A stretch of DNA of 35,243 bases, from the IMG/VR virus record IMGVR_UViG_3300049728_000207, positions 1 to 35,243 of that record; one strand, 5' to 3'. The DNA is from a virus. How positions within the stretch are numbered: the first letter of the stretch is position 1; each line of letters starts with the position of its first letter. Below the pieces are notes generated by a model. The model was not told the DNA's origin. It saw nothing but the letters and a program-made list of their open reading frames with translations, and ran no database searches. Shown in pieces: positions 4,539 to 34,852 of the stretch. Both the position numbers and the translations under genes were made by a program.

Positions 4539-5656
4539 GCGAGAGGATGCATCTTCGTGCTAGGTTGGCTATGGAGTTCTACAAGTTGACCGTCATGGCC
4601 CATTCCGAGGACGACCGTTCCCGGGATGCGTGCATTGCATGGGCTGTCCCTGCCGCTGATGCCCTCCTGGCTGAGCTTCAGAAAGGCGAGCTGGAGAAGT
4701 ATCCCACCGCGTTCGCATACGAAGCTGTGTGCAAGGCAAGGGATAAGTGGCAGGGTCGCGCCGAAGCCGCAGAGGCACGCGTCGCCGAGTTGGATACGCG
4801 TCTCCACAAACTTAATATTGAATACGGGCGCGTGACGGATGGGTGGTCCGCAGCATCTACGAATGAGCAGCGGCTACAGGCCCGCGTCAAGGAGCAGGAC
4901 GGTATCATCGAGGCCCGCAACAAGTCCCTGGGCGACGCCGAAGCCCGCGTCCGCGACCTTACGACGCAGGTCGAGGCGCTGAACCACCTGGACGAGGACA
5001 CGGCGGAAGAGTACCGCGAGTGGAGGGCGCGGGCGGAAAGGGCTGAGGCTCAGCTGAAGGACGCGGAGGCCATTCCGGCGAACTGGCTGGGCGTCTCCGA
5101 GAAGCTCAGGGAGTACGAGACCCGCCTCGCCGCCATCGACGCCGCCAAGGCCGGAGAGCCGCCCATTCCGGATGAGTTTTTCGGTGGCGCCGGCGAGGAT
5201 CCCGACAGGGTTCTTGAGCGCCGGACAGCCTGGGGCCGCCAGGGCTGGGACGCCGCCGCCGCGTTGCGGGTGGAGCTGACTCGATCGCAGGGTATGGACA
5301 GCGCCAGAGAACGAACTATCAAGTCCTTGTGGGATGTCTTGGATCCTGAAAATGATATGACTCCGGACGACATCGTGAAGGTGGCACAGGACAGGATGTC
5401 CAACATCGCTGAGCTGCGGGCAAAGTTGTCGGAGGAACAGGAAGGATCTCGTGGTGCCATCCAGGCGATGTCTTGGCAATGCACAAGGGCCCACGAGGAA
5501 GGCCGCCTGGAGGAGCGGGAGAGGATCGCCACCCTGCTGGATGGAGAAGCGGACAACGACTTGGTTCTCCGGGACATTTCCAGGAATCACAAAAGTGATC
5601 TGTTCGGAGACGACCTCCGAGCCGCGTTGGAGACGCCCACAAAGGAAGAGAAATGA
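4535..5656 (+). CDS. Hypothetical coiled-coil protein (373 aa)
   Basis: The central region, about residues 65-200, is rich in Ala/Glu/Arg heptads (RAEAAEARVAELDTRLHKLN, RAERAEAQLKDAEA) and should form a long coiled coil. A more compact segment follows with IPDEFFGGAGEDPDRVLERR and AWGRQGWDAA, reminiscent of phage proteins with repeated short helical modules. The C-terminus again has a helix of mixed charge. No catalytic motif or membrane segment is visible. It overlaps both neighbours by 4 nt (ATGA). Function unknown; a scaffolding or host-takeover role would be speculation. Confidence 0.7.
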   Translation: MSERMHLRARLAMEFYKLTVMAHSEDDRSRDACIAWAVPAADALLAELQKGELEKYPTAFAYEAVCKARDKWQGRAEAAEARVAELDTRLHKLNIEYGRVTDGWSAASTNEQRLQARVKEQDGIIEARNKSLGDAEARVRDLTTQVEALNHLDEDTAEEYREWRARAERAEAQLKDAEAIPANWLGVSEKLREYETRLAAIDAAKAGEPPIPDEFFGGAGEDPDRVLERRTAWGRQGWDAAAALRVELTRSQGMDSARERTIKSLWDVLDPENDMTPDDIVKVAQDRMSNIAELRAKLSEEQEGSRGAIQAMSWQCTRAHEEGRLEERERIATLLDGEADNDLVLRDISRNHKSDLFGDDLRAALETPTKEEK

Positions 5657-5874
5657 GCTTCAACAGCCCCGTCATGCGACGCTACGAACCGGAGTTCGAT
5701 CATCTCCATCCGCAGGTTCGTGGCGTCGCGCAGCACATTTTTGACACCGACACATCTCTGCAGAACTATCCTCGCGCTGAGCAGTTGGCCATCATCACCA
5801 GCCGCGCCCGCAAATATTGCGAGCGAGTTTACAAGCGTGAGTTTCCACCACTGAACGGTAAGGAGAAATCATGA
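5653..5874 (+). CDS. Small hypothetical protein (73 aa)
   Basis: ATG 5653 overlaps the previous stop (ATGA) and the stop overlaps the next ATG in the same way. The product is soluble and mixed-charge (MSFNSPVMRRYEPEFDHLHP), with a helical C-terminal half ending in basic residues. I do not recognise it. Its place in an uninterrupted coupled array is the main evidence that it is real. Confidence 0.6.
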   Translation: MSFNSPVMRRYEPEFDHLHPQVRGVAQHIFDTDTSLQNYPRAEQLAIITSRARKYCERVYKREFPPLNGKEKS

Positions 5875-6074
5875 GCGGCACCACTGCGCACACCGACAAA
5901 GACTACATCGAAATGCCGATCCGTCTCCCGAAGGAGATGTGGGACAATATCGCGCCGCTGGCCCACGCTGCCGGCCTCACCGTCGAGCAGATGTCGCAGG
6001 CGATTTTCACTCTCCAGGCCAATGCGGGTGGTTGGTTCGCGAAGGAGAAGGAAGACAAGAAGGAGCAGCCGTGA
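5871..6074 (+). CDS. Small protein with ribbon-helix-helix-like pattern (67 aa)
   Basis: Residues 13-50 (YIEMPIRLPKEMWDNIAPLA, then HAAGLTVEQMSQAIFTL) give a strand-helix-helix pattern, strand EMPIRLP followed by two helices, as in MetJ/Arc-type DNA-binding proteins. The C-terminus is a charged tail. This is a fold suggestion only; no diagnostic residue proves it. It is coupled to both neighbours by 4-nt overlaps (ATGA at the start, GTGA at the end). Confidence 0.55.
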   Translation: MSGTTAHTDKDYIEMPIRLPKEMWDNIAPLAHAAGLTVEQMSQAIFTLQANAGGWFAKEKEDKKEQP

Positions 6075-6379
6075 CACACTGTCCTCGCTGTGGCCACCCG
6101 CTTGAGCGCGACCACTGCCTGGCGTGCAACTGGCCCAAGACCATCCAGAACGTGCCACACCTTTGGCACCAACCGATGCTGCCGTGGCCGGTGTCGCCTC
6201 AACCCTTGGCGCCGTTCAACGCGCTCCATTCCGTCAACTGTGACTGCCTTCCCTGCCGGCGCTCGCGCAAGCAACTGGAGAGAGAAAATGAGCGAACGAA
6301 GAAGACTTCCCAATCGTCGTCGTGGTCTCCACTTGGTGATCGGCAGCGGGAAGGAGAAGCTACACGTCTCAACGGGTGA
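6071..6379 (+). CDS. Zinc-ribbon protein, 3' end overlapping the next gene
   Basis: It starts with GTG 6071 in a GTGA overlap. The N-terminus MTHCPRCGHPLERDHCLACN contains a CxxC-x10-CxxC zinc ribbon. A second CxC/CxxC cluster (NCDCLPCRRS) follows, so up to two metal sites are possible. The last 30 residues are low-complexity and share DNA with the first third of gene 6288-6614 in another frame, an unusually long 92-nt overlap. The ribbon part is convincing; the tail may be a by-product of the overlap or of a lost earlier stop. The role is presumably in nucleic-acid or protein binding. Confidence 0.55.
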   Translation: MTHCPRCGHPLERDHCLACNWPKTIQNVPHLWHQPMLPWPVSPQPLAPFNALHSVNCDCLPCRRSRKQLERENERTKKTSQSSSWSPLGDRQREGEATRLNG

Positions 6380-6614
6380 GTATCCGGAAGGGACGCTCGG
6401 CGAAATATTTCTTGATCATCAGAGGGAAGGCACCTTCGGACGCGCTATGCTTAATGCGTTCGCTATGTCCGTCAGCCTGGGCCTCCAATACGGAGTGCCG
6501 CTGGCTGCCTTCCAGAAAACTTTTCGCGACTTCCGCATGGAGCCGGATCTTCTGCGCCAGATGTTCCTGGAGCTCGCGAAGACTTACCCGAAAGAAGAGC
6601 CACCTAATGAGTGA
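6288..6614 (+). CDS. Free-standing TSCPD domain protein (NrdJ C-terminal-domain-like)
   Basis: A 108-residue protein from ATG 6288. After a basic N-terminus (MSERRRLPNRRRG) it reads STGEYPEGTLGEIFLDHQRE, then FAMSVSLGLQYGVPLAAF and FRMEPD. This is the signature of the TSCPD domain found at the C-terminus of adenosylcobalamin-dependent class II ribonucleotide reductases. Only this domain is present; no reductase catalytic barrel is seen in the window. It might modulate the host reductase, bind nucleotide or DNA, or be a relic of a phage reductase. It sits near the MazG-like enzyme in the same operon, which fits a nucleotide-metabolism theme. Stop 6612-6614 overlaps the next gene by 8 nt. Confidence 0.75.
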   Translation: MSERRRLPNRRRGLHLVIGSGKEKLHVSTGEYPEGTLGEIFLDHQREGTFGRAMLNAFAMSVSLGLQYGVPLAAFQKTFRDFRMEPDLLRQMFLELAKTYPKEEPPNE

Positions 6615-7350: not shown

Positions 7351-7626
7351 ATGAGCAAAGCAAAATTCCCAAGTGACGCGAAAGTCACCATCCTTCACGA
7401 GACCACTTTCGAAACTTCCAAAGACCTTTCGGATGCGCAAGGCCAGACTATTGCTGAGAAGGGTTCACTTAACATTTATGAGTTCGTCAACGCGCCAGAC
7501 ACTCAGCAGATCTTCGTCACGGCCAACACACCGGAGGAAGCCTCAGCATTTCTGAACGAGATGACCCGGTTGTCGTCCACGCCACGACAGCTGCTTGCAT
7601 ACCCGGATTGGCTGAACAATTTGTAG
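7351..7626 (+). CDS. Small hypothetical protein (91 aa), first gene of a new unit
   Basis: ATG 7351 follows AAAGGAG and the promoter at 7280-7307. The protein (MSKAKFPSDAKVTILHETTF) is acidic and strand-rich at first, then helical at the C-terminus (NTPEEASAFLNEMTRL). No family is recognised. Its own promoter implies it is needed at a distinct time or level. It is followed by a UUCG hairpin. Confidence 0.65.
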   Translation: MSKAKFPSDAKVTILHETTFETSKDLSDAQGQTIAEKGSLNIYEFVNAPDTQQIFVTANTPEEASAFLNEMTRLSSTPRQLLAYPDWLNNL

Positions 7627-7631
7627 GCGAA

Positions 7632-7649
7632 ACACCGCTTCGGCGGTGT
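7632..7649 (+). terminator. UUCG-capped hairpin, possible terminator or processing site
   Basis: ACACCGC-TTCG-GCGGTGT is a perfect 7-bp stem with an extra-stable UUCG tetraloop just after the stop at 7624-7626. There is no U-run, so it may protect or process mRNA, or act as a weak attenuator, rather than terminate efficiently. Confidence 0.4.
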
Positions 7650-7710
7650 CCGCAGGATTCCGCCCTACCTGCGCTGATGAGCCAGGGCGCCACAACCAAA
7701 AGGAGGAAAG

Positions 7711-7974
7711 ATGCGAACACCAAGTGGGTTGGCCCACCAGTTCTACCACACCCTTTGTCACGACCTGAAGGTCGAGTTCCCCGTAACGGAGCAGCAGATG
7801 CGGCAGTTGTCGCTCGCGCTGTCCGCGATACAGGACGCAGGTTACGTGCGATTCACTCCGACCACCGTGCGTCGCTTGCTGTTCCCGGACGCCATGGACA
7901 CGAGGCTGTTCACTGGCAAGCCCGGTTACGCAGAATTCCGCAACATCGTCAACGAGATCGTAGGAGGCAAGTGA
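7711..7974 (+). CDS. Small hypothetical protein (87 aa)
   Basis: ATG 7711 is preceded by AAAGGAGG. Sequence begins MRTPSGLAHQFYHTLCHDLK and is predominantly helical, with a segment DAGYVRFTPTTVRRLLF. I do not recognise it. The TGA at 7972-7974 overlaps the next ATG (TGATG). Confidence 0.6.
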   Translation: MRTPSGLAHQFYHTLCHDLKVEFPVTEQQMRQLSLALSAIQDAGYVRFTPTTVRRLLFPDAMDTRLFTGKPGYAEFRNIVNEIVGGK

Positions 7975-8162
7975 TGGACGAAGAGATGGTTCGTATTCGC
8001 GATATGAGGACGAGGATCATGTCCGGGTTGCTGGCTCAGGTGCAGGAGCAGCTTGATATACTGTCGGTGCTTCCGCTTTGCGACAGCGAAAAGGTCGAGC
8101 TCGAGGCAGTGGGCGAGTTCGTGGAGATGGCACAGGATCGCATCGACATGGTGGGCAAATGA
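7974..8162 (+). CDS. Small helical hypothetical protein (62 aa)
   Basis: It starts at ATG 7974 in a TGATG junction, with GGAGG at 7963-7967. It consists of two helices (RTRIMSGLLAQVQEQLDILS and EAVGEFVEMAQDRIDMVGK). No family is recognised. It ends by ATGA overlap with the next gene. Confidence 0.55.
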   Translation: MDEEMVRIRDMRTRIMSGLLAQVQEQLDILSVLPLCDSEKVELEAVGEFVEMAQDRIDMVGK

Positions 8163-8362
8163 CCAGAAGAAACCGTATCCCGGGCTTGTCCTTCTCATGG
8201 AGACGCGCCATAGGAATTTCTGCCGCCAAGGCACGACTCTCCCGCCAGCTCGGCGTCCCTCTTACACGCAGTGGCCGGCAGCGTAAGGTTGGGCGATCGC
8301 TTGGCTGTTGCTGGATCCTACTCCTCCCCATCGTCGCAACGGCCGTTGCGCACTTCTGCTAG
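8159..8362 (+). CDS. Small basic protein with C-terminal membrane segment (67 aa)
   Basis: Residues 1-45 are very basic (MTRRNRIPGLSFSWRRAIGI, later RSGRQRKVGRS). A hydrophobic stretch CCWILLLPIVATAVAHF follows, long enough to span a membrane. The SWRRAIGISAAKARLSRQLG and GRQRKVGR pattern resembles a widespread family of tiny basic proteins in phages and bacteria that I remember without a known function. ATG 8159 overlaps the preceding TGA. It is probably membrane associated. Confidence 0.6.
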   Translation: MTRRNRIPGLSFSWRRAIGISAAKARLSRQLGVPLTRSGRQRKVGRSLGCCWILLLPIVATAVAHFC

Positions 8363-8370
8363 GAGATTTC

Positions 8371-8595
8371 GTGAGCGACAACAAACAGGTCTACTGGGCG
8401 AGCGCCGTCACGAAGAACTGCCAGGCGTGTGGTCGTAGCCTTCACGCTGCTTTCTACGACGCGCGGTTGAAGGACGGCGTCTGGGGCATCGTGTGCGACC
8501 CTTGCTTCCAGATCCGTGGCGTTGGTCTCGGTGTGGGTAAGGGACAGCGGTATACTAGACAAGCTGACGGACGTTGGCTGAAGACGGGAGGGTGA
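8371..8595 (+). CDS. Small treble-clef/zinc-finger protein (74 aa)
   Basis: GTG 8371 is preceded by AGGAG (8361-8365). The protein has NCQACGR and VCDPCFQ, two CxxC pairs 33 residues apart, as in small zinc-binding modules of phages. It ends in a basic tail (GQRYTRQADGRWLKT). Nucleic-acid binding is likely but unproven. Confidence 0.6.
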   Translation: MSDNKQVYWASAVTKNCQACGRSLHAAFYDARLKDGVWGIVCDPCFQIRGVGLGVGKGQRYTRQADGRWLKTGG

Positions 8596-8596
8596 G

Positions 8597-8785
8597 CTGG
8601 CGAAATCGAAAACGATCGACGAGACGCGAGTCGACCGAGCTGTGGCATCGTACATTAAACTTGCGCGAGCGCTGGATGACGGAGAGTTTCCCGAAGACTG
8701 GGAACCACAGGAAGTCGCCTACATTCTGCGAACGCTTGTCTCGGGCATAGAGGCTCTTCGCAAACATCTTAAGGAGCCGAAATGA
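8597..8785 (+). CDS. Small hypothetical protein with a probable CTG start (62 aa)
   Basis: The frame opens after an in-frame TGA at 8579-8581 and holds no ATG, GTG or TTG until GTG 8642. CTG at 8597 lies 4 nt after a strong GGGAGGG (8586-8592) and would give AKSKTIDETRVDRAVASYIK, then an amphipathic helical protein ending ALRKHLKEPK. The stop overlaps the next ATG (ATGA), which supports a coupled gene here. If CTG is not used, a 47-residue product from GTG 8642 is the alternative. Confidence 0.45.
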   Translation: MAKSKTIDETRVDRAVASYIKLARALDDGEFPEDWEPQEVAYILRTLVSGIEALRKHLKEPK

Positions 8786-9159
8786 ACCACACCGGATTTG
8801 CCTACCGTGTCATGGCGCGGGTCACGCTCACTCGCGAAGAGGTCGAGACCGCCACCGCACTCGCCCGAGCACACTACGATAACTTATGCAAGGACACGGC
8901 CCGTCCTGGTGGTTTGCTGTTCGGTCTTAATAACCGGCTTCACCTGGCGGGGAATCCGGGGTTGCCCGAGGATGAGATCGATGTCGCGCTAACATTCCGT
9001 GACGCCGATCTGCTGGCCAAGGTCACCGAGCAGCTGATGTATCCCGGAGAAGCACTGATTCCAGCAGCCTGCCGGCTTCATGCTGAGCTGATGCTGGTGA
9101 TGCACAAGATGAACGCTGAATACGAAAGAATGCATCCGAGAACTGAGGAGACGAAATGA
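8782..9159 (+). CDS. Hypothetical protein (125 aa)
   Basis: A soluble, largely helical protein (TREEVETATALARAHYDNLC; EQLMYPGEALIPAACRLHAE) with no catalytic motif I recognise. It starts by ATGA overlap with 8597-8785 and ends the same way into 9156-9323. Confidence 0.65.
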   Translation: MNHTGFAYRVMARVTLTREEVETATALARAHYDNLCKDTARPGGLLFGLNNRLHLAGNPGLPEDEIDVALTFRDADLLAKVTEQLMYPGEALIPAACRLHAELMLVMHKMNAEYERMHPRTEETK

Positions 9160-9323
9160 AGATCACGTTCACTATGTCAATAAAGCAACTTCGGCTGGTG
9201 CTCGCAAGTAAGGAGACCAGCGGCGCGTTCAGTAACGGGGGCGAAAAGGTCTTTTACTGGCAGAAGCGATCGCCGGCGGCTGGTGCCGTAATCGACATAT
9301 CAGACGAGCCTAATAGTTGGTAG
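9156..9323 (+). CDS. Small hypothetical protein (55 aa), last gene of the early array
   Basis: ATG 9156 overlaps the previous TGA, with GAGGAG upstream. The protein MKITFTMSIKQLRLVLASKE ends in DISDEPNSW. No family is recognised. A non-coding stretch follows. Confidence 0.5.
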   Translation: MKITFTMSIKQLRLVLASKETSGAFSNGGEKVFYWQKRSPAAGAVIDISDEPNSW

Positions 9324-9632
9324 CTACTTCGTATTTTCTTTACCGACGCCGCGTAGTATAGTGGCCGAGTAGTAGATCCTTACTATCGGAGCCACGCGCT
9401 CCACGCCAATCCCGAAGCCGCTGGGCAGCTTACACCGTAGTGCCTGGCCCGCAAGGGATTTTATGCACCCACCTTGAGTGGCGTTCGGATGGCCCACTAA
9501 AGTTTCAGTCCGAATGACAGCCGGGAAAGACCGGCAAGCCAGCGGGCGAAACGCGAGTTAATCTCATCATCTTTCGGGGTGTCGTCTAGCGGTCGGGCTG
9601 ATCACTCGACAGGACACGCTTGCTGGTAACCA
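9324..9632 (+). other. Non-coding stretch with dense secondary structure and tRNA-like fragments
   Basis: No convincing gene is present. A potential H-type pseudoknot has stem 1 AGTGG/CCACT (9477-9481 with 9494-9498) and stem 2 TTCGGA/TCCGAA (9484-9489 with 9509-9514), with loops of 2, 4 and 10 nt. A hairpin GCCGG-GAAAGA-CCGGC follows at 9520-9535, and GGAGC-CACGC-GCTCC lies at about 9388-9402. TAGTATAGTGG (9354-9364) and GGTGTCGTCTAGCGG (about 9578-9592) look like tRNA D-arm halves without matching T-arms. The region could be a structured phage RNA or decayed tRNA genes ahead of the intact tRNA. Confidence 0.45.
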
Positions 9633-9708
9633 GGGCCTGTAGCTCAGTTGGGAGAGCGGGTGCTTTGCAAGCATCAGGTCGCAGGTTCGATCCCTGTCAG
9701 GTCCACCA
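9633..9708 (+). tRNA. tRNA-Ala (anticodon TGC)
   Basis: A 76-nt cloverleaf. Acceptor GGGCCTG pairs with CAGGTCC (one G-U), the D-arm is GCTC-AGTTGGGA-GAGC, and the anticodon arm is GGTGC-TTTGCAA-GCATC with anticodon TGC. The T-arm is GCAGG-TTCGATC-CCTGT, with discriminator A and an encoded CCA at 9706-9708. It reads GCA codons. It probably supplements host tRNA, and the 3' end could also serve as an attachment site. Confidence 0.93.
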
Positions 9709-9887
9709 TTCCTTTGGCTGCACATGCCCGAATCCCGATCTGGTCAAGACATGTGCGGTGTCGTCCAGTGGCTACCTCGCCGGCAACGGCATCTCGACTA
9801 CGGAGCGCAGTAGGCAAACCTGGCAGCTTCAGTGGAATGCTGAAGCGTTTCATCCCACGCAACGAAGCACAACTGGGTGACAGATAC
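9709..9887 (+). other. Non-coding gap after the tRNA with repeats and a tRNA-like half
   Basis: GGTGTCGTCCAGTGG (about 9757-9771) nearly repeats GGTGTCGTCTAGCGG found upstream of the tRNA. Also present are the inverted repeat GCACATG/CATGTGC (9720-9726 with 9750-9756), the hairpin GCCG-GCAA-CGGC (9779-9790), and the perfect 7-bp hairpin GCTTCAG-N7-CTGAAGC (9826-9846). No convincing coding frame covers it. Confidence 0.4.
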
Positions 9888-10079
9888 ATGCTTCTCCTTC
9901 TTACCATCATCTTGGCGCTGCTCATTGTGGTGCTGGTCCTAGGGCACCTCTACGGTGGCGAGCGACAGCCTGAGCAGACGCCTTTCCTCGGTGAGGACGG
10001 CAGCTACCTTGCCGGACCGAGGCTCCTCACCGGTGTGCGGTGGACGCCGCCGGACTTCTGCTGCTTGGGTTGGCGGTGA
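9888..10079 (+). CDS. Small membrane protein (63 aa)
   Basis: ATG 9888 opens a frame whose residues 2-20 (LLLLTIILALLIVVLVLGH) are an N-terminal transmembrane helix. A hydrophilic tail follows (GERQPEQTPFLGEDGSYLAG) and ends DFCCLGWR. The ribosome-binding site is weak (GGGTGA), so expression is less certain. No family is recognised. A UUCG hairpin AACGC-TTCG-GCGTT follows at 10105-10118. Confidence 0.5.
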   Translation: MLLLLTIILALLIVVLVLGHLYGGERQPEQTPFLGEDGSYLAGPRLLTGVRWTPPDFCCLGWR

Positions 10080-10354
10080 GGGCTGCCGACCTGCCCTCCG
10101 GCACAACGCTTCGGCGTTCTCTTCAAGCCAGGGCCGTGCCTCTGGTCCTGCGTTGAATAGAATCCCTACCACAGAGACCACCGACATTGCCCGTGGAGTC
10201 CGGGCACTTGCCGTCTTTAAGAGCCACTAACGGAGTGGCAGTGTGTTGCATCGGTGGGCTGAGCCACCACGCCACAAACAGCCGGTCCATAGGAGGTCAC
10301 CATGCGCCTTAGTGCATAAACGGCGAACACCTGACATCGCCACCCTTTCCCTCC
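10080..10354 (+). other. Non-coding region with hairpins
   Basis: It contains the UUCG hairpin at 10105-10118 followed by a T/C-rich run, a perfect GCCACT-AACGG-AGTGGC hairpin at 10223-10239 and a GGTGG-GCTGAG-CCACC hairpin. Near its end an AGGAGG (10291-10296) leads a five-codon frame. Longer frames on either strand look like random shadows. Confidence 0.4.
10302..10319 (+). CDS. Possible five-codon minigene (MRLSA)
   Basis: ATG 10302 sits 5 nt after a perfect AGGAGG (10291-10296) and is followed by CGC CTT AGT GCA TAA. A strong terminator lies 36 nt beyond. Such minigenes exist in phages as leader or tRNA-titrating peptides. GCA, its last codon, is the codon read by the phage tRNA-Ala nearby. 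It may be coincidence. Confidence 0.25.
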   Translation: MRLSA

Positions 10355-10388
10355 ACGACCCTCCTTGCCCCCGGAGGGTCGTTTTCTT
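10355..10388 (+). terminator. Rho-independent terminator
   Basis: ACGACCCTCC (10355-10364) pairs with GGAGGGTCGT (10373-10382) across an 8-nt loop, giving a 10-bp stem followed by TTTCTTTG. It separates the early/tRNA region from the unit beginning at 10442. Confidence 0.8.
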
Positions 10389-10441
10389 TGTTGACCAAAC
10401 CAAGCTGATGCATAATTTATATGCGCTTAATAATTTTGTGC

Positions 10442-10469
10442 TTTACACGGTGCACTGGTGCCGTATATT
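10442..10469 (+). promoter_or_regulatory. Strong sigma70-like promoter
   Basis: TTTACA (10442-10447), 16 nt, TATATT (10464-10469). The spacer contains a GTGCAC palindrome, and the surrounding AT-rich sequence resembles the reverse complement of the terminase control region. It drives the gene at 10547 and probably more. Confidence 0.65.
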
Positions 10470-10546
10470 TACTACCTCGGGGTTGACCACCCGAGAAGAA
10501 CAGCTCCGGTCGTGAGGTAACCCTCCACCAACAAAAGGAGACCGCA

Positions 10547-10957
10547 ATGCTTACCGAACTGCACGCCATCACTGAGCCTGCCGGCGATTACCGCGCCTCA
10601 CTGGTGTTCCTCAAAGACCTGTCGCGAGCCCTTCCCATCGTCCTGGCGCGGGTGGACAAGAAAGCGGTGGCCGCTAGGGCAGCCAAGACCAAAAAACTGA
10701 CGGGCAAAGACGCTGGGACGACCCAGGCAGCGTCGAAGCCCGCGACCGAGCCCGCTACCCACCGTTCGAAGCCTGGGGACGACCGTAAGATCGTCGTGCT
10801 GGCCGAGAAGAACCCCAAGCGGCCCGGCACCGCTTCCTACAAGAGGTTCGCGCTCTACAAGAAGGCCGCCACTGTCGGAGAATACCTGGAGCTCGGTGGG
10901 AACCGGACCGACCTGAAGTGGGACCAGCAACGAAAGCACATCAAACTGACCAAGTAG
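10547..10957 (+). CDS. 'NPKR'-domain basic protein, copy 1 (136 aa)
   Basis: The N-terminal 40 residues are ordinary helical sequence (LVFLKDLSRALPIVLARVDK). Residues about 40-80 are a Lys/Ala/Thr-rich linker. Residues 81-136 carry the domain shared with genes 12944-13513 and 21530-22162: KIVVLAEKNPKRPGTASYKR, then FALYKKAATVGEYLELGG and a closing LKWD...IKL. A histone-H1-like basic linker followed by a small conserved domain suggests DNA or protein-DNA complex binding. It has its own promoter (10442) and terminator (10976), so it is likely made at high level. I have seen this domain in other phage proteins but know no function. Confidence 0.75.
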   Translation: MLTELHAITEPAGDYRASLVFLKDLSRALPIVLARVDKKAVAARAAKTKKLTGKDAGTTQAASKPATEPATHRSKPGDDRKIVVLAEKNPKRPGTASYKRFALYKKAATVGEYLELGGNRTDLKWDQQRKHIKLTK

Positions 10958-16791: not shown

Positions 16792-18651
16792 ATGGCAATT
16801 CCGAAAGTACACATCCTTGACTTTGAGACCGCCGGTATTCAGAACCGCCCGGTCTACCCACCTGTGCCGGTGGGCTTCTCCCTGAAGAGTCCTGGCGACC
16901 GGAAGAGCCGCTACTACGCCTGGGGACATCCGATTGCGAACAACTGCACCTTCCAGGAGGCACAGGCTGCCCTCAAGGGCGCATGGACCAGTGGCCTTCC
17001 CATCCTCATGCACAACGCCAAGTTCGACTATGACGTTGCGACCATCCATATGAAGATGCCGGCGCTCGACTGGCGACTGCTGCACGACACCCTCTACCTC
17101 CTTTTCCTCAGCGATCCCCACGCCATGACGCTGGCCTTGAAGCCGGCATCAACGCGCCTGCTGAACATGCCTCCCGAAGAACGCGACGTCGTGCGCGACT
17201 GGCTTGTCGATCACAAGATCGTCAAGAAGGTGGGAAAGGATTGGGGCGCGCACATCTGCGACGCTCCGGGCGACATCGTCGGTGCCTACGCTGACGGCGA
17301 CGTGCTGCGCACCGAGAAGTTGTTCAAGCTGCTCTATCCGCAGATCCAAGAACGCGGCATGGTCTCGGCCTACGACCGGGAACGGCAGCTGATGCCGATC
17401 TTGCTGGAGAATGAGCGACAGGGTATTCGCGTCGATCTGAAGACGATGCGGTCTGACTTCAAGACCTACACCGAAGCCGTCGCCAAGACGGACGCATGGC
17501 TGCGGAAGCGACTGAAGACGAAGGACCTGAACGTCGACAGCGACAACGACCTCGCCGATGCCCTGGAGCGGGCCGGTGTGGTCACCCAGTGGGTCCTCAC
17601 GGCCACTGGGCAGCGGAGCGTGGCAAAGAAGAACCTCACGCCCGATATGTTCGAGGACCAGAAGGTCGCCTCAGCGCTTGGCTACCGTAACCGGCTCTCG
17701 ACCTGCCTGGGGACGTTCCTGGAGTCCTGGATAGCCACGGCGGAGGCCTCTGGCGGCATGATCTACACGAACTGGAACCAGGTTCGGCAGGCCGGAGACG
17801 GCTCCGGCTTCCGGGGCGCACGCACCGGACGACTGAGCAGCAACCCGAACTTTCAGAACATCCCAAAGATCTGGGATGACAAAGACGATGGCTACGTTCA
17901 TCCCAAGCATCTCGACGTTCTAGAGCTGCCGGCCATGCGGAAGTACTTCCTCCCCGATAAGGGTGGTCTGTTCTGCCACCGGGACTACAACCAGCAGGAG
18001 CTGCGAATCCTAGCGCACTTCGAGGACGCTTCCCTGTGCCAGGCCTACCGCGAAGATCCTCTACTGGATGTGCATACCTTCGTCCAGAATCAGATCAGCA
18101 CGCTGTTCGGTCTCCACCTTGAGCGCCGTGCGGTAAAGGTTCTTAACTTCGGAATGATCTACGGACTTGGGTTGGCGAAGCTTGCCATCGGCGTTCACAC
18201 GTCAGTGGAGGAAGCGCGCCGGATCAAGGATGCGCAGATGAAGGCCATCCCTGGTCTCGCCAACCTCAACCGACAGATCAAGGAAATCGGGAAGAGTGGG
18301 CAGCCCATCGTCACGTGGGGTGGTCGACAGTATTACACCGAGCCTCCGCGCATCATCGACGGGCGGAAGCAGACTTTCGAATACAAGCTACTCAACTACC
18401 TTGTGCAGAGTTCGGCGGCAGATTGCACAAAGCAGGCGTTGATAAATTACGACGCGGCCAAGAAGGACGGACGCCTTCTCTCAACGGTGCACGACGAAAT
18501 CAACCTCTCCGTGCCGAAGAGCGCAGTAAAGGGTGAGATGAAAATTCTGCGGGAGGCAATGGCCGACGTGGCCTTTGACGTTCCCATGATCAGCGACGGC
18601 AAGACCGGGCTCAACTGGGGTTGCCTTACCAAATTCAAGGATGAGGTGTAA
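16792..18651 (+). CDS. Family A DNA polymerase with 3'-5' exonuclease domain
   Basis: A 619-residue enzyme. The proofreading domain has Exo I LDFETA (Asp10, Glu12), Exo II HNAKFD (74-79) and Exo III YADGD. The polymerase domain has motif A DYNQQELR (398-405), motif B RRAVKVLNFGMIYG (445-458, with catalytic Lys449 and Phe453), and motif C TVHDE (565-569). Phe453 is the Pol I-type residue that discriminates against dideoxynucleotides. The 5'-3' exonuclease domain of bacterial Pol I is absent, as in T7-type phage polymerases. This is the replicative polymerase of the phage. ATG 16792 has GGTGAGG upstream. The 3' end is close to the GTG of the next gene. Confidence 0.93.
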   Translation: MAIPKVHILDFETAGIQNRPVYPPVPVGFSLKSPGDRKSRYYAWGHPIANNCTFQEAQAALKGAWTSGLPILMHNAKFDYDVATIHMKMPALDWRLLHDTLYLLFLSDPHAMTLALKPASTRLLNMPPEERDVVRDWLVDHKIVKKVGKDWGAHICDAPGDIVGAYADGDVLRTEKLFKLLYPQIQERGMVSAYDRERQLMPILLENERQGIRVDLKTMRSDFKTYTEAVAKTDAWLRKRLKTKDLNVDSDNDLADALERAGVVTQWVLTATGQRSVAKKNLTPDMFEDQKVASALGYRNRLSTCLGTFLESWIATAEASGGMIYTNWNQVRQAGDGSGFRGARTGRLSSNPNFQNIPKIWDDKDDGYVHPKHLDVLELPAMRKYFLPDKGGLFCHRDYNQQELRILAHFEDASLCQAYREDPLLDVHTFVQNQISTLFGLHLERRAVKVLNFGMIYGLGLAKLAIGVHTSVEEARRIKDAQMKAIPGLANLNRQIKEIGKSGQPIVTWGGRQYYTEPPRIIDGRKQTFEYKLLNYLVQSSAADCTKQALINYDAAKKDGRLLSTVHDEINLSVPKSAVKGEMKILREAMADVAFDVPMISDGKTGLNWGCLTKFKDEV

Positions 18652-22238: not shown

Positions 22239-23042
22239 ATGTTACGAATCTATATCCCGACTTTCGGGCGGTCCGAGGACCAGAAGACGTTCCATGAACT
22301 GCCTCCCAAGCTACACGCCAATACCACGTTGGTCGTTGACAGCCGGGAGAAGAAGCTGTACGCCAAATATCTGGAGGAAGGCGCGGGCGTGCTTGTCTGC
22401 CCGCCCTCCGTCAACACCATCGGGAAGGTGCGCCAGTACGTGATGGAACGCCATGCGGTGGAGGTACACGGCCCGAAGATAGTCATGCTCGACGACGACC
22501 TGGGGTTCTGCACCCGGCGGACGGATGACCCCGGCAAGTTCTTGGCGTCGACGCAAAAGGACATCGCGGCTCTCTTCGCCACACTCGAAAAGACGCTGGG
22601 GAAGTATGCCCACGCGGGCGTGTGCGCGCGGGAGGGCGGAAACCGCTTCGCCGAGAGCGGTCCCATCGTGGAGTGCACCCGGCTGCTCCGGCTGCTGGCT
22701 TACGACGTCGAGGTCTTCCGCCGCGAGAAGATCCGGTTCGACCGCATCATCATCATGGAGGACTTCGACGTCGCGCTCCAACTTCTCCGGAAAGGTTACA
22801 AGAACGCACTGCTCACCGGCTGGTGTCAGGGCCAGGGCAGTAGCAACGCGCCGGGTGGATGCTCCACCTACCGGACCATGGAGAAGCAGCGGGAAGGTGC
22901 CCTTGGCCTCGCCAAGTTGCACGAGCCCTTCGTCCGCGTCGTGGAGAAAACCACCAAGGGCGCGTGGAATGGGCAGACCCGGACCGACTGCACTGTGTAT
23001 TGGAAGAAGGCATACGATTCTTCCCAGCGCGGTGCGAAATGA
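22239..23042 (+). CDS. TET-associated-type DNA glycosyltransferase (TAGT-like)
   Basis: A 267-residue GT-A-type protein. It opens RIYIPTFGRSEDQKT and has a Rossmann strand LVVDSRE. The metal/nucleotide-sugar motif VMLDDDLGF (Asp85-87) and a second acidic element MEDFDVALQLLRKGY (Glu174, Asp175) match phage TAGT-type enzymes that glycosylate 5-hydroxymethylpyrimidines in DNA. No TET/JBP dioxygenase is seen in the window, so the hydroxymethyl group would have to come from the thymidylate-synthase homologue at 24404 or a gene elsewhere. It overlaps the next gene by 4 nt (ATGA), which strongly links the two. ATG 22239 has TAGGAGAA upstream. Family recognition is by motif recall; the sugar and base specificity are unknown. 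Confidence 0.72.
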   Translation: MLRIYIPTFGRSEDQKTFHELPPKLHANTTLVVDSREKKLYAKYLEEGAGVLVCPPSVNTIGKVRQYVMERHAVEVHGPKIVMLDDDLGFCTRRTDDPGKFLASTQKDIAALFATLEKTLGKYAHAGVCAREGGNRFAESGPIVECTRLLRLLAYDVEVFRREKIRFDRIIIMEDFDVALQLLRKGYKNALLTGWCQGQGSSNAPGGCSTYRTMEKQREGALGLAKLHEPFVRVVEKTTKGAWNGQTRTDCTVYWKKAYDSSQRGAK

Positions 23043-23899
23043 TCAACCTCGAAAAGGAGTTGATCTATTTCATCAAGGAGCGGCATGCGGTCTACATGCG
23101 CAGGTTTCTTGAGCAACCCCGGCCCTGGACCAAGGACCCGCTCTTGCAGATGTATCGCTTCTGCAACATCTACCGAGAACTTGACGCGGTCACCGTGTGG
23201 ATCGCCAATAACTGGCGGGACAAGCACAAGGACGACAAGGATGTGTGGTTCGCCATGTGCGTCGCCCGCTGGATCAACCTGCCGGAGACCTTGGAGGATC
23301 TGGGATACCCGAAGACCTGGAACCCGGAGAAGTTCCGCGCCACCATGGAACGGCGGAAGCGCAACCATCAGAAGCTGATCAACGGTGCGTATATGATCAC
23401 CACCCACGGCGACAAGCAGCCGCTGCCGGAGTTTCTGACCGGCCTGTTCACCGTTCTGTGGAGTCGGCGTGCAGAACTGCGTCCTCGCACTGGGGACACT
23501 CTGAAAAGCTTCACCGAGCGGCTCGCGTCGGTCCACCACTTCGGCACGTTCATGGCCGCCCAGGTTACGGCTGACGTGAAGTATACGACCTGCCTGGCCG
23601 ACGCCACGGACTGGTGGACATGGGCGGCGAGCGGCCCTGGTAGCAGGCGCGGACTCAACCGTGTCCTGGGTCGTCCCCTGAACGCGCCCTGGTCGGAAGA
23701 GGAGTGGCTCTTCGAACTGCAGAAGCTTCACGCCACTGTCAACAAGGTCATCGAGAAACTCGGCTATCCCCGTCTTCACGCTCAAGACCTTCAGTCGTGC
23801 AATTGTGAAATCGATAAATATTTACGTGCAAAGAATGGTGAAGGACGGCCAAAATCTCGATATCCTGGAGGTGCGGAGTATGGGCCAGCGAGACGCTAA
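23039..23899 (+). CDS. Alpha-glutamyl/putrescinyl-thymine pyrophosphorylase / hmdU-kinase helical-domain protein
   Basis: A 286-residue all-helical protein. Signature segments are PRPWTKDPLLQMYRFCNIYR (27-46) with ELD after it, FGTFMAAQVTADVKYT (168-183), GPGSRRGLNRVLGR (199-212), and DLQSCNCEIDKYLRAKNGEG (250-269) followed by RPKSRYPG. This is the family of the 5-hmdU DNA kinase helical domain and the aG/PT-PPlases. These act on 5-hydroxymethyl-dU in phage DNA, either phosphorylating it (when fused to a P-loop kinase) or displacing pyrophosphate with an amino acid or polyamine. No P-loop is present here or adjacent. The domain is complete to its C-terminus. The HNH gene begins within its last 20 nt. 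Translation is coupled to the glycosyltransferase. Confidence 0.78.
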   Translation: MINLEKELIYFIKERHAVYMRRFLEQPRPWTKDPLLQMYRFCNIYRELDAVTVWIANNWRDKHKDDKDVWFAMCVARWINLPETLEDLGYPKTWNPEKFRATMERRKRNHQKLINGAYMITTHGDKQPLPEFLTGLFTVLWSRRAELRPRTGDTLKSFTERLASVHHFGTFMAAQVTADVKYTTCLADATDWWTWAASGPGSRRGLNRVLGRPLNAPWSEEEWLFELQKLHATVNKVIEKLGYPRLHAQDLQSCNCEIDKYLRAKNGEGRPKSRYPGGAEYGPARR

Positions 23900-24413
23900 A
23901 GACGGAGAAATGCGAATGCGTGGAGGGTATTTGCAGCGAAAGGTTGTCGCGCATGAAGAATTTGGAACTCGGTGGATAAGTGAGCATTACTACGTCTGGT
24001 GGAAATACCGGAAACTTCGCGTACCGCCGGGCCACATCCTCCACCATAAAGATGGTAATAAGCTCAATAACAAAGTAGGAAATTTGCGGGTAATGACTGC
24101 TGGTGCGCACACAACACTACATAAAACAGGACACGAGGTTACCGCATCTATGCGCGCACGAATATCCGCAGCGGCTGGCAGCATAAGCGACGAAACTCGC
24201 GCTAAGATGTCTACCGCGAAACTTGGTAAGAAGTTGAGCGCAGAAACACGCGCAAAGATGTCAGAATCTGGAAAGCGTAAGAAACTTATCGCCGAGCACC
24301 GCGCGAAAATAGGTAACGCAGTACGAGGAAAGAAGAGAAGTCCGGAGACCTGTGAACGCTGCCGTCAGGCCGCACTTAAACGCGCAGCAAAGAGGAGAGC
24401 ACAATGCACGTAA
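23880..24413 (+). CDS. HNH homing endonuclease with NUMOD3-like repeats
   Basis: ATG 23880 with GGAGG (23867-23871) is preferred over an in-frame ATG at 23805 that would overlap the previous gene by 95 nt. The 177-residue product has an HNH core (VPPGHILHHKDGNKLNNKVG, then NLRVMTAG). Three or four short repeats follow of the type SDETRAKMSTAKLGKK / SAETRAKMSESGKRKK, as in NUMOD3 DNA-binding modules of homing endonucleases. The gene is more AT-rich than its neighbours, indicating recent arrival. It lies freestanding between the two modification genes, overlapping each slightly, and is probably a selfish element rather than part of the pathway. Confidence 0.82.
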   Translation: MGQRDAKDGEMRMRGGYLQRKVVAHEEFGTRWISEHYYVWWKYRKLRVPPGHILHHKDGNKLNNKVGNLRVMTAGAHTTLHKTGHEVTASMRARISAAAGSISDETRAKMSTAKLGKKLSAETRAKMSESGKRKKLIAEHRAKIGNAVRGKKRSPETCERCRQAALKRAAKRRAQCT

Positions 24414-25390
24414 TTTCAGCTCGCAATGTAAATGGCGCATTTGCGCAGGGTCTTGAATACCTGCTGCATTTTGGCGAGGTGGAGGCCTCCCGCAACGGAA
24501 AGGTGCTGGTCGCCCCATCCGCCGTCACCACTGTCTACGAGCGCCCGTGGGAGCGCGTTCTTTTCTCACCTCTCCGCGATGCAAATCCAGTGTTCCATCT
24601 CATGGAAGCGCTGTGGATGCTGGGAGGTCGGAGAGACGTCGCCTTCCCAGCGCAGTTCAACAAGCGGTTCGTCGACTACAGCGATGACGGTGTGCTCTTC
24701 AACGCAGCCTACGGGTACCGTTGGCGGAGCTACTTCGACCGCGATCAGCTGGCGGACATCATCGGAGAGCTTCGTCGTAGTCCGGAGAGTCGGCGCTGCG
24801 TGCTGGGGATGTGGGATCCCTACGCGGATCTGGGCAGCAGCAGCCGGGACATTCCCTGCAATACGAACGTCTACTTCGATCGCCGGCATGGGAAATTGAA
24901 CATGACCGTGTGCAACCGGAGCAACGACATCATCTGGGGAGCCTATGGCGCGAACGTCGTTCACATGTCGATGATGCAGGAATACATCGCATCCGCGCTG
25001 GACTGCCCCATGGGCGTCTATCGACAGGTAAGCAACAACTACCACGCCTATACCGATGTCTATCCGGTGACGAAGTTCCAGGAACTGGCCAACGACGCCC
25101 TAGCCAACGACGAATACTTCTTCGATCGTGACGGCATCTTCGAGGAACCGCACGGCAACTTCACCAACGCGGCCCGCTTCGACCGCTGGAATGCAGACCT
25201 GCTGAACTTCCTCAACGGCAACCTCAGACAGTGCACGGAGGAATTTTTTATTGGTACCGCTATTCCGATGTATACTGCCTGGGTCGCCCGCAAGCAGAAG
25301 CAGAGCAACGGACTTTCCATCGCGGAGAGCATTGTTGCGCCGGACTGGCGCATCGCTTGCGTTGACTGGATTCTCAGGAGAGAGAAATGA
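24404..25390 (+). CDS. Thymidylate synthase family protein, possible dUMP hydroxymethylase
   Basis: A 328-residue ThyA-fold enzyme. Catalytic Cys152 lies in DIPCNTNVYF. The phosphate-binding arginines are in SPESRRCVLGMWDP, and NRSNDIIWGAYGANVVH is the counterpart of the ThyA QRSxD...N element. Asn184 at the pyrimidine-recognition position favours dUMP over dCMP, with a one-residue insertion before it. NNYHAYTDVY holds the conserved His/Tyr pair. The sequence differs from cellular ThyA in several loops. In hypermodified phages, relatives of this family make 5-hydroxymethyl-dUMP, so either thymidylate or hmdUMP formation is possible. It is followed with ATGA overlap by a nucleotidase. Confidence 0.82.
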   Translation: MHVISARNVNGAFAQGLEYLLHFGEVEASRNGKVLVAPSAVTTVYERPWERVLFSPLRDANPVFHLMEALWMLGGRRDVAFPAQFNKRFVDYSDDGVLFNAAYGYRWRSYFDRDQLADIIGELRRSPESRRCVLGMWDPYADLGSSSRDIPCNTNVYFDRRHGKLNMTVCNRSNDIIWGAYGANVVHMSMMQEYIASALDCPMGVYRQVSNNYHAYTDVYPVTKFQELANDALANDEYFFDRDGIFEEPHGNFTNAARFDRWNADLLNFLNGNLRQCTEEFFIGTAIPMYTAWVARKQKQSNGLSIAESIVAPDWRIACVDWILRREK

Positions 25391-25887
25391 ATATACAAGA
25401 GCGGCTCAACTTCCTCATTCGTGGGGGAGCAACCAAACGGTACCACACCGTTCAGACGCTGACGCAGGAAACCATCGCCGAACACAGCTTCTACGTCGCC
25501 ATGTTTTGCCAGCTGATCGCGTTCCCCGGCGCTTCGCTGCTTCTCGCGGCGCTTTCCCATGACCTGGCCGAGTACAAGACCGGTGACATTCCCTCCCCCA
25601 CCAAGCGGGCCTGCGCGATGGGCGACGCTGTGGAGGAGATGGAAGCGAAGCTTCTGAAGGAGCATGGCTTCAAGTTCCTTCTGAACGAATCCGAGCAGCG
25701 CATCCTGGTGATGGCGGACCGCATGTCCGGTATGCTGCGCTGCATCATCGAGCGTCGTCTCGGCAACGCCGGCATCGAATACGTCTACGTCAATTTCCGC
25801 GACTACGTTGCTGAGCTCAACCCCAACAAGGACGAGCTGGCCGTCTACGAAGAACTGAAGTCCCTTTGGGAGGAGGCATCCAAATGA
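25387..25887 (+). CDS. HD-domain 5'-deoxynucleotidase (YfbR-like)
   Basis: A 166-residue all-helical HD-domain phosphohydrolase. Arg18, His33 (TIAEHSFYVA), His58-Asp59 (ALSHDLAEYKTGDIP), Glu62 and Asp112 (VMADRMSGML) match the metal and substrate ligands of E. coli YfbR, a dNMP phosphatase. Coupling to the thymidylate-synthase homologue suggests it removes unwanted dNMPs, for example dTMP or dCMP, so that modified nucleotides are favoured. Substrate is inferred only. Confidence 0.82.
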   Translation: MNIQERLNFLIRGGATKRYHTVQTLTQETIAEHSFYVAMFCQLIAFPGASLLLAALSHDLAEYKTGDIPSPTKRACAMGDAVEEMEAKLLKEHGFKFLLNESEQRILVMADRMSGMLRCIIERRLGNAGIEYVYVNFRDYVAELNPNKDELAVYEELKSLWEEASK

Positions 25888-26867
25888 GCGCCAACAACAC
25901 ACAAATCGGCGGTGATCACTACCAGTCCGGGTATCAGCACTGGGACTTCGTTCAGCGCACCCTGCAGGGCCGGTATCTGGAAGGCTGCATCGCCAAGTAC
26001 GTCAGCCGGTGGCGGAAGAAGAACGGCTTGCAGGACCTGCAGAAGGCTTCCCACTACCTCACCAAGCTCATCGAGGAGTTCGGTGCGCGCCGGGTGGCAC
26101 CGCTCGGTCTCAACGCGCTGGCGTTCGAGGACGCCCGTCTGTTCAATGCAGTGAACAAGCTGGGGACCTACGAAAGCACCATCATCACGTGCATCGCCAC
26201 CTGGTCGGACGTACGAACACTCCTGAATGCGCAGACCGCGCTCAAGGAACTCACCGAAGATGCTGATCTGCACAAGGAGTGCCCAGCACCGAAGAAGCTG
26301 GGTGCCGGCGCACTGAAGGTCGCAATAAACATCGAAGACATTCCTGGAGTACAGAAAGTTCGTTCGGAAGCTGCCGAAGCAATCAAGATCAGCGAGCGTC
26401 TTGCCGTCGCCAACATGAAAGCTGACGTCGCCGACAAGAACTTTGGTATCGCTGCCGCTGAGTGCCATGAAGCCAAGATGGTCCTCAGTCGTATCCGCGA
26501 GGCCTTCGGGCTCCGCCCTGACGACGGAGCCTCGCTGGCTGAGTTCGCTGAGCTTCTCATGCGCTCGGACCGCTACTTCACCGAAAAGGCTGCTGCACTG
26601 GGAAATATGAACCACTCGCTCAACAAGCAGCTTCAGAAGCTGTCGGGTGAGAGCGCAAAGCTGGGTGGTCTGCTCAACAGCGAGCGCGACACCATCCGTC
26701 TGCTGCTGAAAACTCAGCGTGATCTCGTGGGAGAACACGACATGCTGCGCGCCGCGATGGAAGCACGGGAGAAGCAACCGCCCAAGAACGCCGAGGCCGA
26801 ACGCCTGGAAGCCGAGGTGACCCGCCTCGCCACCGAACTTAACCGAGTTCGAGGCGAAAAGGAGTAA
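25884..26867 (+). CDS. DUF3310 protein with coiled-coil extension (327 aa)
   Basis: ATG 25884 follows AGGAGG. Residues about 5-65 (GGDHYQSGYQHWDFVQRTL; LEGCIAKYVSRWRKKNGLQD, then LQKASHYL) are the DUF3310 domain, common in phage nucleotide-metabolism regions and sometimes suggested to be a nucleotide kinase or kinase-like protein. DUF3310 proteins are usually much shorter. Here about 250 extra residues follow, with Ala/Glu/Arg-rich helices and a C-terminal coiled coil (EAERLEAEVTRLATELNRVR). This fusion may tether the domain to a complex. Confidence 0.75.
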   Translation: MSANNTQIGGDHYQSGYQHWDFVQRTLQGRYLEGCIAKYVSRWRKKNGLQDLQKASHYLTKLIEEFGARRVAPLGLNALAFEDARLFNAVNKLGTYESTIITCIATWSDVRTLLNAQTALKELTEDADLHKECPAPKKLGAGALKVAINIEDIPGVQKVRSEAAEAIKISERLAVANMKADVADKNFGIAAAECHEAKMVLSRIREAFGLRPDDGASLAEFAELLMRSDRYFTEKAAALGNMNHSLNKQLQKLSGESAKLGGLLNSERDTIRLLLKTQRDLVGEHDMLRAAMEAREKQPPKNAEAERLEAEVTRLATELNRVRGEKE

Positions 26868-34006: not shown

Positions 34007-34852
34007 ATGCGCACCCAATTCCTGTTGTCATTACTGCTGCTATCCACCGGCTGTGTCGGGCAGCACGGCACAGAGATGCCAAGCCCACAGAAAGCCCCTG
34101 TCATCGGCGTGACCGGCACTGGACCGACGCCGGTGTACATCTTGGCAGGGCAGTCCAACGCAGCGGGAGCGGGCCAAGTTTGTGAGTTGGACACCGAGCA
34201 AGCTAACCCGCCGTTGGACAGTTACCTCTACGACGGTGGAACCTGCGCGCCTGATGTTCTTGGGCACTGGACACCTATCACAACCGGTCTCGGGTGCAAC
34301 CACTCCTACATCGGACCTGAACTTGGTTTCGCGAAGTCTACGCCAGGACCGGTGTATCTTATCAAGTGCGCCGTGCCAAGCACTAGCATGGACACTTTCT
34401 GGCGGTCCCCGTCTGCCGGCGGGGCATTTCCCGGCTATGTCGCGCTTCTCAAGACTATCAAAGCCGGGCTTTCTGACGCCCAGATCTCCGGAGGTTTTCA
34501 CCTCGCGGGCCTTCTGTGGCTCCAGGGTGAGTCAGATGCAATTGCGGGGGGTGCGGCCGCTGCGCAGTATCATCAGAGGTTGGCGGCCTTCATCGAAGAC
34601 CTTCGACATGACGTGGGAGTACCCGCCCTTCCAGTGGTTATTGCCCAAATCCACCGTTACGTCGGCGAGGGATGTGGACAGCAGGTCCAAGATGCTGAGA
34701 CTGCCGTTGCGACCGAGGTCCCACACGTCGTTATTTTCTCGACCGATGATCTCACCCTTGGGCAGGGGCCAGACGAGGGAGGACAGGCTGAGTACGAAAT
34801 CGGATGCCGATTCGCAGCAGCGATGCAGTCACTTACCAATCCGGTCCCGTAG
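34007..34852 (+). CDS. SASA-type (GDSL-like) acetylesterase lipoprotein, moron candidate
   Basis: ATG 34007 with GAGGAG at 33994-33999. A lipoprotein signal (MRTQFLLSLLLLSTGC, lipobox LSTGC, Cys16) precedes a 265-residue SASA/DUF303-like domain. The nucleophile block is YILAGQSNAAGAG and the second block LLWLQGESDA. The expected C-terminal D-x-x-H is not evident: the region reads DDLTLGQGPDEGGQAEYEIG with no histidine, so activity may be altered. It is anchored to a Gram-negative membrane, and an O-acetyl esterase could change surface glycans. It is the only plus-strand gene inside a minus-strand late region. Confidence 0.72.
   Translation: MRTQFLLSLLLLSTGCVGQHGTEMPSPQKAPVIGVTGTGPTPVYILAGQSNAAGAGQVCELDTEQANPPLDSYLYDGGTCAPDVLGHWTPITTGLGCNHSYIGPELGFAKSTPGPVYLIKCAVPSTSMDTFWRSPSAGGAFPGYVALLKTIKAGLSDAQISGGFHLAGLLWLQGESDAIAGGAAAAQYHQRLAAFIEDLRHDVGVPALPVVIAQIHRYVGEGCGQQVQDAETAVATEVPHVVIFSTDDLTLGQGPDEGGQAEYEIGCRFAAAMQSLTNPVP

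Follow-up and report, generated by a model that had tools for sequence, protein, structure and literature searches.

Kinetoplastids carry base J, a glycosylated 5-hydroxymethyluracil, in their DNA, where JBP dioxygenases oxidise T and another glucosyltransferase then acts. The name of the TAGT glycosyltransferase family implies an association with a TET/JBP dioxygenase, although its members in phages T2 and T6 do without one. The T-even enzymes act on DNA bases, adding a second glucose to glucosyl-hydroxymethylcytosine (glucosyl-hmC) (PMC13216743, PMC13390438). Pseudomonas phage M6 DNA carries bases derived from 5-hydroxymethyldeoxyuridine (hmdU) (PMC6449724), and in its genome a P-loop 5-hmdU DNA kinase (gp54, PF18748) adjoins gp55 (PF18723), followed after two small genes by a thymidylate synthase (TS) homologue and an HD nucleotidase. 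A 5-hydroxymethyluracil (5-hmU) DNA kinase, described without its subunits, phosphorylates hmU, not hmC, in DNA (PMC6457204). Glycosylated 5-hmdU was stated in 2019 to be unreported in phage genomes (PMC6449724), and we recognised no later report among the titles and abstract openings of the literature searched. Here we describe the IMG/VR record IMGVR_UViG_3300049728_000207, a linear sequence of 35,243 bases, possibly a fragment, which was analysed at full length (the window). In it, a TAGT-family gene overlaps the gene of a PF18723 protein, here called HEL, ahead of genes for a TS homologue and an HD nucleotidase. We read the locus as a cassette for thymine hypermodification in which a glycosyltransferase replaces the kinase as the catalytic partner of HEL, and give this a probability of roughly 55%.

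The co-occurrence of these genes is not new, because pelagiphages of the HTVC023P type have been published with genes for TS, aG/PT-PPlase1, a deoxynucleotidase and a putative beta-glucosyl-HMC-alpha-glucosyltransferase (PMC9599517). The combination matches ours by name, whereas in the window the genes run TAGT-HEL-(HNH)-TS-HD; many further loci ordered HEL-TAGT-TS with DNA polymerase A nearby may belong to the HTVC023P-type group. The available part of that paper holds no discussion that we found of the absence of kinase or amino-acid:DNA transferase (ADDT), of exclusion between kinase and TAGT, or of the HEL fold. A first-pass annotation of the window did not know the combination as characterised. 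Of its chemistry none was found in the literature searched (Lee et al. 2018 and 2021 and Iyer et al. 2013 not covered); its gene content is in print.

Results

Profile searches, the check that the first-pass annotation had proposed, placed both proteins in the families it had named. The GT-A protein matches the TAGT profile PF20691 (E 1.2e-21, 78 bits against a cut-off of 27.5; residues 3-207 on positions 2-205 of 205), and the motifs on which the call had been based lie at residues 83-87 (MLDDD) and 173-177 (MEDFD), with D85-D87 invariant across 25 aligned TAGT sequences. Its AlphaFold2 model (predicted local distance difference test, pLDDT, 94.2) matches GT-A folds best (GalNAc-T2, Z 15.9). 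HEL, which had been described as a helical protein of the aG/PT-PPlase/hmdU-kinase kind, matches HMUDK_hel (PF18723; E 5.8e-43, 148 bits against a cut-off of 25; residues 7-267 on positions 6-277 of 281) and has the expected signature motifs PWTKDPLLQMYRF, GPGSRRGL and CEIDKY; going by its Pfam name, we regard PF18723 as the helical component of the 5-hmdU DNA kinase. Sequence searches for solved-structure relatives of TAGT and HEL returned nothing credible. The reported ATGA junction is real: the TAGT stop codon (TGA, 23040-23042) overlaps the HEL start codon (ATG, 23039-23041), an arrangement that may couple their translation.

The pair recurs far beyond the window. A TAGT-seeded scan of IMG/VR gave 77 loci, including a near-copy of the window (L007), and rows L001, L002, L007 and L087-L102 were dropped as copies. 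Among records with a TAGT of at least 33% identity (G005-G068), 61 of 64 hold PF18723 (60 above the cut-off), and in the three that do not (L039, L042, L053) the TAGT gene lies no more than 102 bases from the contig end. All 64 loci with both TAGT and HEL, the window and Brevibacterium phage LuckyBarnes included, have a TS homologue (64/64). The two genes stand directly adjacent in either order, with gaps of zero or near zero; L015, L009, L060, L069 and L004 have them 0.6-6 kb apart. LuckyBarnes carries two TAGT genes, in the order TS-TAGT-TAGT-HEL. Clustering the TAGTs at 50% identity leaves HEL in 11 of 14 clusters and adjacency within 150 bases in 5. The order TAGT-HEL-TS-HD is found again in contig L008, the nearest relative (identity 78% for TAGT, 64% for HEL). 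The gene set is a real, recurrent cassette. The window TAGT shares with the T2 and T6 enzymes its Pfam family (PF20691) and, by prediction, the transfer of sugar onto phage DNA bases; by tblastn it finds 9 records of a phage collection at E 1e-5, neither T2 nor T6 among them.

Besides HEL, the cassette shares with phage M6 the same TS family (45% identity to gp58, including the RSND...GAN segment), an HD nucleotidase, a DUF3310 gene and a nearby DNA polymerase A, in a gene order that parallels TAGT-HEL-(HNH)-TS-HD. HEL is likewise present in the wider M6/ViI type (Pseudomonas phage M6, ViI-like SFP10, PhiW-14). In contrast to that type, the window has a TAGT gene overlapping HEL, and no P-loop kinase, ADDT, M6-like pyridoxal-phosphate (PLP) or radical-SAM protein was found in it. 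Set against other thymidine-hypermodification systems the cassette is a variant: the glycosyltransferase occupies the place that the kinase has beside HEL in M6.

The scan for P-loop hmdU kinase genes that the first-pass annotation had suggested came back empty for the 35,243-base record, both with PF18748 and with a wider alignment (A3) of 11 M6-like kinase sequences, and no P-loop half that would complete a 5-hmdU DNA kinase was found for the window HEL, whether fused or elsewhere in the record. Among window open reading frames (ORFs) of at least 40 residues, only a UvrD helicase contains [AG]xxxxGK[ST]. We used A3 because PF18748 alone under-detects kinases: PF18748 has no match in PhiW-14, SH-Ab 15599, Montesquieu and PrincePhergus, non-seed phages that A3 matches at 1e-25, 3e-25, 6e-6 and 2e-4, respectively. 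The A3 search covered 47 records (40 of 81 numbered and 7 named); it found no kinase in LuckyBarnes and matched 1 of the 39 TAGT+HEL records tested as whole records, that of L070, itself a seed. Across all 64 TAGT+HEL loci, an M6-like kinase occurs once (L070) and an M6-like ADDT in none, in the DNA fetched. In L070 (IMGVR_UViG_3300009101_000006, 7458-10861) HEL, two TAGTs and the M6-like P-loop kinase lie together, with no ADDT found there. Kinase and HEL are far apart in PhiW-14 and SH-Ab 15599. Scanning around HEL for Walker-A motifs turned up an ORF of about 500 residues with GPPGTGKT in many HEL-TAGT loci; the four of these that were checked are UvrD helicases. M6 gp54 (NC_007809; L084, 6405-6968) is annotated as a terminase small subunit in its record, and P-loop 5-hmdU kinase homologues in L109 and L111 carry a similar label in public records.

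PF18748, TET/JBP (PF12851) and ADDT (PF18724) were searched in 80 records, 4 distant TAGT records apart. TET/JBP was found in none of the 80, the window among them, in agreement with the first-pass annotation, and we rejected a TET-dependent TAGT accordingly. As a positive control, the search recovered the TET-like gene that is annotated in Rhodococcus phage Tonitrus (E 7.7e-10, slightly below the Pfam cut-off). ADDT was not found in the window. The annotation had offered a sugar- or amino-containing thymine analogue: the sugar part fits the TAGT match, and an amino-containing base we reject as unsupported, since ADDT, P-loop kinase and M6-like PLP and radical-SAM proteins were not found in the window. 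With neither ADDT nor kinase found, the first steps towards the amino bases of the M6/ViI type are missing there.

Searching instead with a HEL alignment gave a sample not seeded on TAGT, in which partners were counted within about 7 kb (some loci being cut by contig ends). The viral set, the best 80 of at least 583 loci, divides into 33 loci with TAGT, 22 with a kinase and 25 with neither, and none has both; 12 of the 33 TAGT loci were already in the TAGT-seeded set by contig name. The 62 cellular loci have TAGT in 2, kinase in 7, both in 0 and neither in 53. M6-like ADDT loci all carry the kinase (7/7 viral, 5/5 cellular). After dereplication of these best 80 viral loci at 60% HEL identity, the exclusion holds (11 TAGT, 20 kinase, 0 both, 11 neither; Fisher p 2e-4). 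At 50%, TAGT-type and kinase-type HELs fall together in three clusters, so HELs that each share 50% identity or more with one representative may have different partners.

Mapped onto a tree built from 38 HELs, the TAGT label requires 6 changes, of which starred branches force at least 3; even so, it clusters more than expected by chance (mean of the shuffles 12.7, with none of 500 reaching so low a value). The approximately unbiased test rejects a single clade of TAGT-type HELs, L070 included (p-AU 7e-100), on a tree with long branches. Of 3 phylogenetically independent pairs on starred branches, an average of 2.4 have kinase and TAGT changing in opposite directions, and none has them changing together. 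Exchange of partners more than once is supported, not proven.

Loci with neither partner were scanned at 20 HEL-neighbour proteins. A sulfotransferase-like protein overlaps HEL in L121 (7834-8613; E 2.7e-4, below the cut-off) and a radical-SAM protein in L131 (4622-5545, above the cut-off), single cases that are possible further partners. The other neighbours were a nucleoside hydrolase, a clamp-loader subunit, UvrD helicase, nucleases, regulators, ThyX, or nothing clear. The nucleoside hydrolase gene overlaps HEL in L122 (6108-7004), and a gene without a family found overlaps it in L129 (104-1054). HEL homologues occur in archaeal and bacterial contigs (part of L198-L259), for example Haloferax elongans (L235) and Woesearchaeota (L222), the latter with a Thy1-domain (ThyX) protein just upstream of HEL; no TS homologue was found in 47 of the 53 cellular loci with neither partner.

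The AlphaFold model of HEL (pLDDT 92.8; predicted template modelling score, pTM, 0.89) has the fold of the DNA glycosylase (helix-hairpin-helix) superfamily. Foldseek lists first the Methanocaldococcus jannaschii 8-oxoguanine glycosylase (E 0.044, probability 0.99) and then the 5-PmdU glycinyltransferase PUGT, gp46 of phage PaMx11 (E 0.27, probability 0.84). VIA-align puts PUGT first (8z2n; Z 10.8, 223 aligned residues, root-mean-square deviation 4.1), tied within 1 with the M. jannaschii enzyme on DNA (3knt, Z 10.3), and gives EndoIII Z 8.4; PUGT differs in being 11% identical to HEL and, by its title, in acting on a phosphorylated base. VIA-align warns that helical models may score Z near 13 without meaning, and we trust the match because ranks 1-27 (Z 10.8-5.8) form an unbroken run of one protein kind, all being DNA glycosylases, PUGT or the queuine-salvage enzyme DUF2419; at rank 28, again a glycosylase, Z drops to 3.3. 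Over 32 HELs, 20 columns are invariant, including D191 and GPG199-201. On this model we read HEL as a probable base-flipping DNA-binding protein with a glycosylase fold.

The TS homologue and HD nucleotidase that had been noted downstream are confirmed (Table 1). Between HEL and TS lies a homing-endonuclease-like ORF that is absent from the equivalent place in L008; in our judgement ATG at 23910 is its likelier start, over the listed GTG at 23805. An annotated homing endonuclease likewise stands beside the HEL gene of PhiW-14. A DUF3310 gene near TS is also found in some other TAGT-type loci.

Table 1 Features of the window, with the profile matches and sequence features that identify them
Feature	Position	Strand	Basis and remarks
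DNA polymerase A	16792-18651	+	PF00476; context only
TAGT-family GT-A glycosyltransferase, 267 residues	22239-23042	+	PF20691; LDDD metal site, MEDFD motif
ATGA overlap, TAGT stop/HEL start	23039-23042	+	Sequence
HEL, 286 residues	23039-23899	+	PF18723 (HMUDK_hel, former aG/PT-PPlase clade 1); predicted DNA-glycosylase-superfamily fold
HNH/NUMOD3 homing-endonuclease-like ORF, HEL/TS interval	23910-24413	+	PF13392, PF07460
TS-superfamily protein, predicted deoxyuridine monophosphate (dUMP) 5-hydroxymethylase	24404-25390	+	PF00303, phrog_5131; 45% identity to M6 gp58
HD-domain YfbR-like 5'-deoxynucleotidase	25387-25887	+	PF12917; ATGA overlap with TS
DUF3310-containing protein	25884-26867	+	PF11753; ATGA overlap with HD gene
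SASA-family carbohydrate esterase	34007-34852	+	PF03629; close to contig end

Discussion

What we observe is the families of the proteins, the overlap of their genes, the recurrence of the pair, its near-exclusion of the kinase and the predicted folds; from these we infer every chemical step, the sugar and a HEL-TAGT complex. The TS homologue would convert dUMP to 5-hydroxymethyl-dUMP (hmdUMP), which would pass through hmdUTP into phage DNA, insertion falling to DNA polymerase A, mentioned as context only. The HD nucleotidase would remove competing deoxynucleoside monophosphates. HEL, to judge by its fold and its kinship with the 5-hmdU kinase, would bind DNA and present 5-hmdU, probably by flipping it out, and TAGT, perhaps in a physical complex with HEL, would move a sugar from a nucleoside diphosphate sugar onto the 5-hydroxymethyl oxygen. 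The most likely product is a base-J-like glycosyl-5-hmdU, its base and sugar both being what we infer, and it would protect the DNA against nucleases. The likeness to base J is one of predicted product class; hmdU in the window would arise from the TS homologue at the nucleotide level.

Several findings weigh against this reading. Known TAGTs put a second sugar on glucosyl-hmC (PMC13216743, PMC13390438), and the LuckyBarnes authors predicted a deoxycytidine monophosphate (dCMP) hydroxymethylase (PMC6588365). None of the 12 distant TAGT records (21-26% identity) holds PF18723, and MW202897 (40 kb, circular) has TAGT-HMase-HD without it; TAGT therefore does not always need HEL. L070, with kinase, HEL and two TAGTs, makes the exclusion of kinase and TAGT less than absolute. 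Neither partner lies within about 7 kb of HEL in 25 of the 80 viral loci, which are the best of at least 583, or in 53 of the 62 cellular ones. Dereplicated at 50%, the exclusion is not significant (p 0.18, clusters with differing partners, 'mixed', counting as 'both' in the Fisher test), and the independent pairs on starred branches, only 3, are too few for significance. Microbacterium phage Pikmin has a HEL without a kinase match and a TAGT match only below the cut-off. The Foldseek E-values of HEL are weak, the best being 0.044, and the VIA-align warning applies to its Z scores. The sub-cut-off TAGT-like protein of Pikmin (L108, gp45, 5642-6529) adjoins an annotated thymidylate kinase.

The alternative that survives best, unlikely as we think it, is that TAGT and HEL act in sequence, HEL performing its own PUGT-like chemistry on 5-hmdU and TAGT glycosylating the phosphorylated or activated base to give a phospho-sugar or mixed modification. 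Ranked by Z, the best structural match of HEL is PUGT, an actual transferase, and the invariant charged residues of HEL (R15, D33, R46, E47, D49, R77, D179, D191, E257 and K260) perhaps exceed what a passive clamp needs. Kinase and TAGT do coexist in L070, and in SP-15 DNA a modified uracil bears both glucose and phosphoglucuronate (PMC5977210). However, with an M6-like kinase found only in L070 among 64 TAGT+HEL loci, and a UvrD helicase as the sole window ORF with the [AG]xxxxGK[ST] pattern, the sequence of reactions is left with no known phosphate source.

A cytosine base seems improbable. Here, TS would be a dCMP hydroxymethylase, TAGT would act on hmC as in T-even phages and HEL would be incidental; PHROG and record labels do read beta-glucosyl-HMC-alpha-glucosyltransferase, and the LuckyBarnes prediction points the same way. 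Against it, the TS homologue resembles M6 gp58 and keeps the Asn of the GANxxH segment as in M6; Asn there marks dUMP specificity and Asp dCMP specificity. HEL, moreover, is near-constant beside this TAGT clade, and the bases of M6 DNA are hmdU-derived (PMC6449724). We favour hmdU because TS resembles M6 gp58 and a 5-hmU DNA kinase is hmU-specific (PMC6457204); the hmdUMP route proposed by the first-pass annotation is plausible on the strength of the same 45% identity.

Still less probable is that HEL is an active base-excising glycosylase directed against unmodified or host DNA, from which TAGT glycosylation shields the phage DNA. The predicted fold would suit it, and the invariant D191 lies about 22 residues past a hairpin-like segment, resembling EndoIII, where an Asp follows the hairpin at comparable spacing. 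Base-excising restriction enzymes exist (PMC10273834). Yet M6 and others have HEL next to or close to a P-loop hmdU kinase, a setting in which a glycosylase that damages the phage's own DNA would be hard to explain, and PUGT is a non-excising enzyme with the same fold. That the glycosyltransferase targets the cell surface or a protein and lies beside HEL by chance is hardly credible: GT-A folds are generic and the top Foldseek row for TAGT is TarP, which we take to be a teichoic-acid enzyme, but TAGT and HEL share 61 of 64 records, in both orders, and all 33 HEL-seeded loci with TAGT have the two genes on one strand.

We thus prefer a glycosyltransferase in the kinase's place as partner of HEL. 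More tentatively, HEL may be a portable 5-hmdU adaptor whose partner phages have repeatedly swapped, between kinase, TAGT and perhaps sulfotransferase-like or radical-SAM proteins, and many phages may carry glycosyl-5-hmdU that is made through TS and free of TET/JBP. If HEL does work with exchangeable partners, the 'helical domain' of the kinase would gain a role, and further thymine chemistries a handle. Glycosyltransferases directed at hmU, if that is what these are, would be useful tools for 5-hmU labelling. With a widespread cassette that predicts glycosyl-5-hmdU and a cultured carrier in Brevibacterium phage LuckyBarnes, base-J-like DNA in phages is directly testable.

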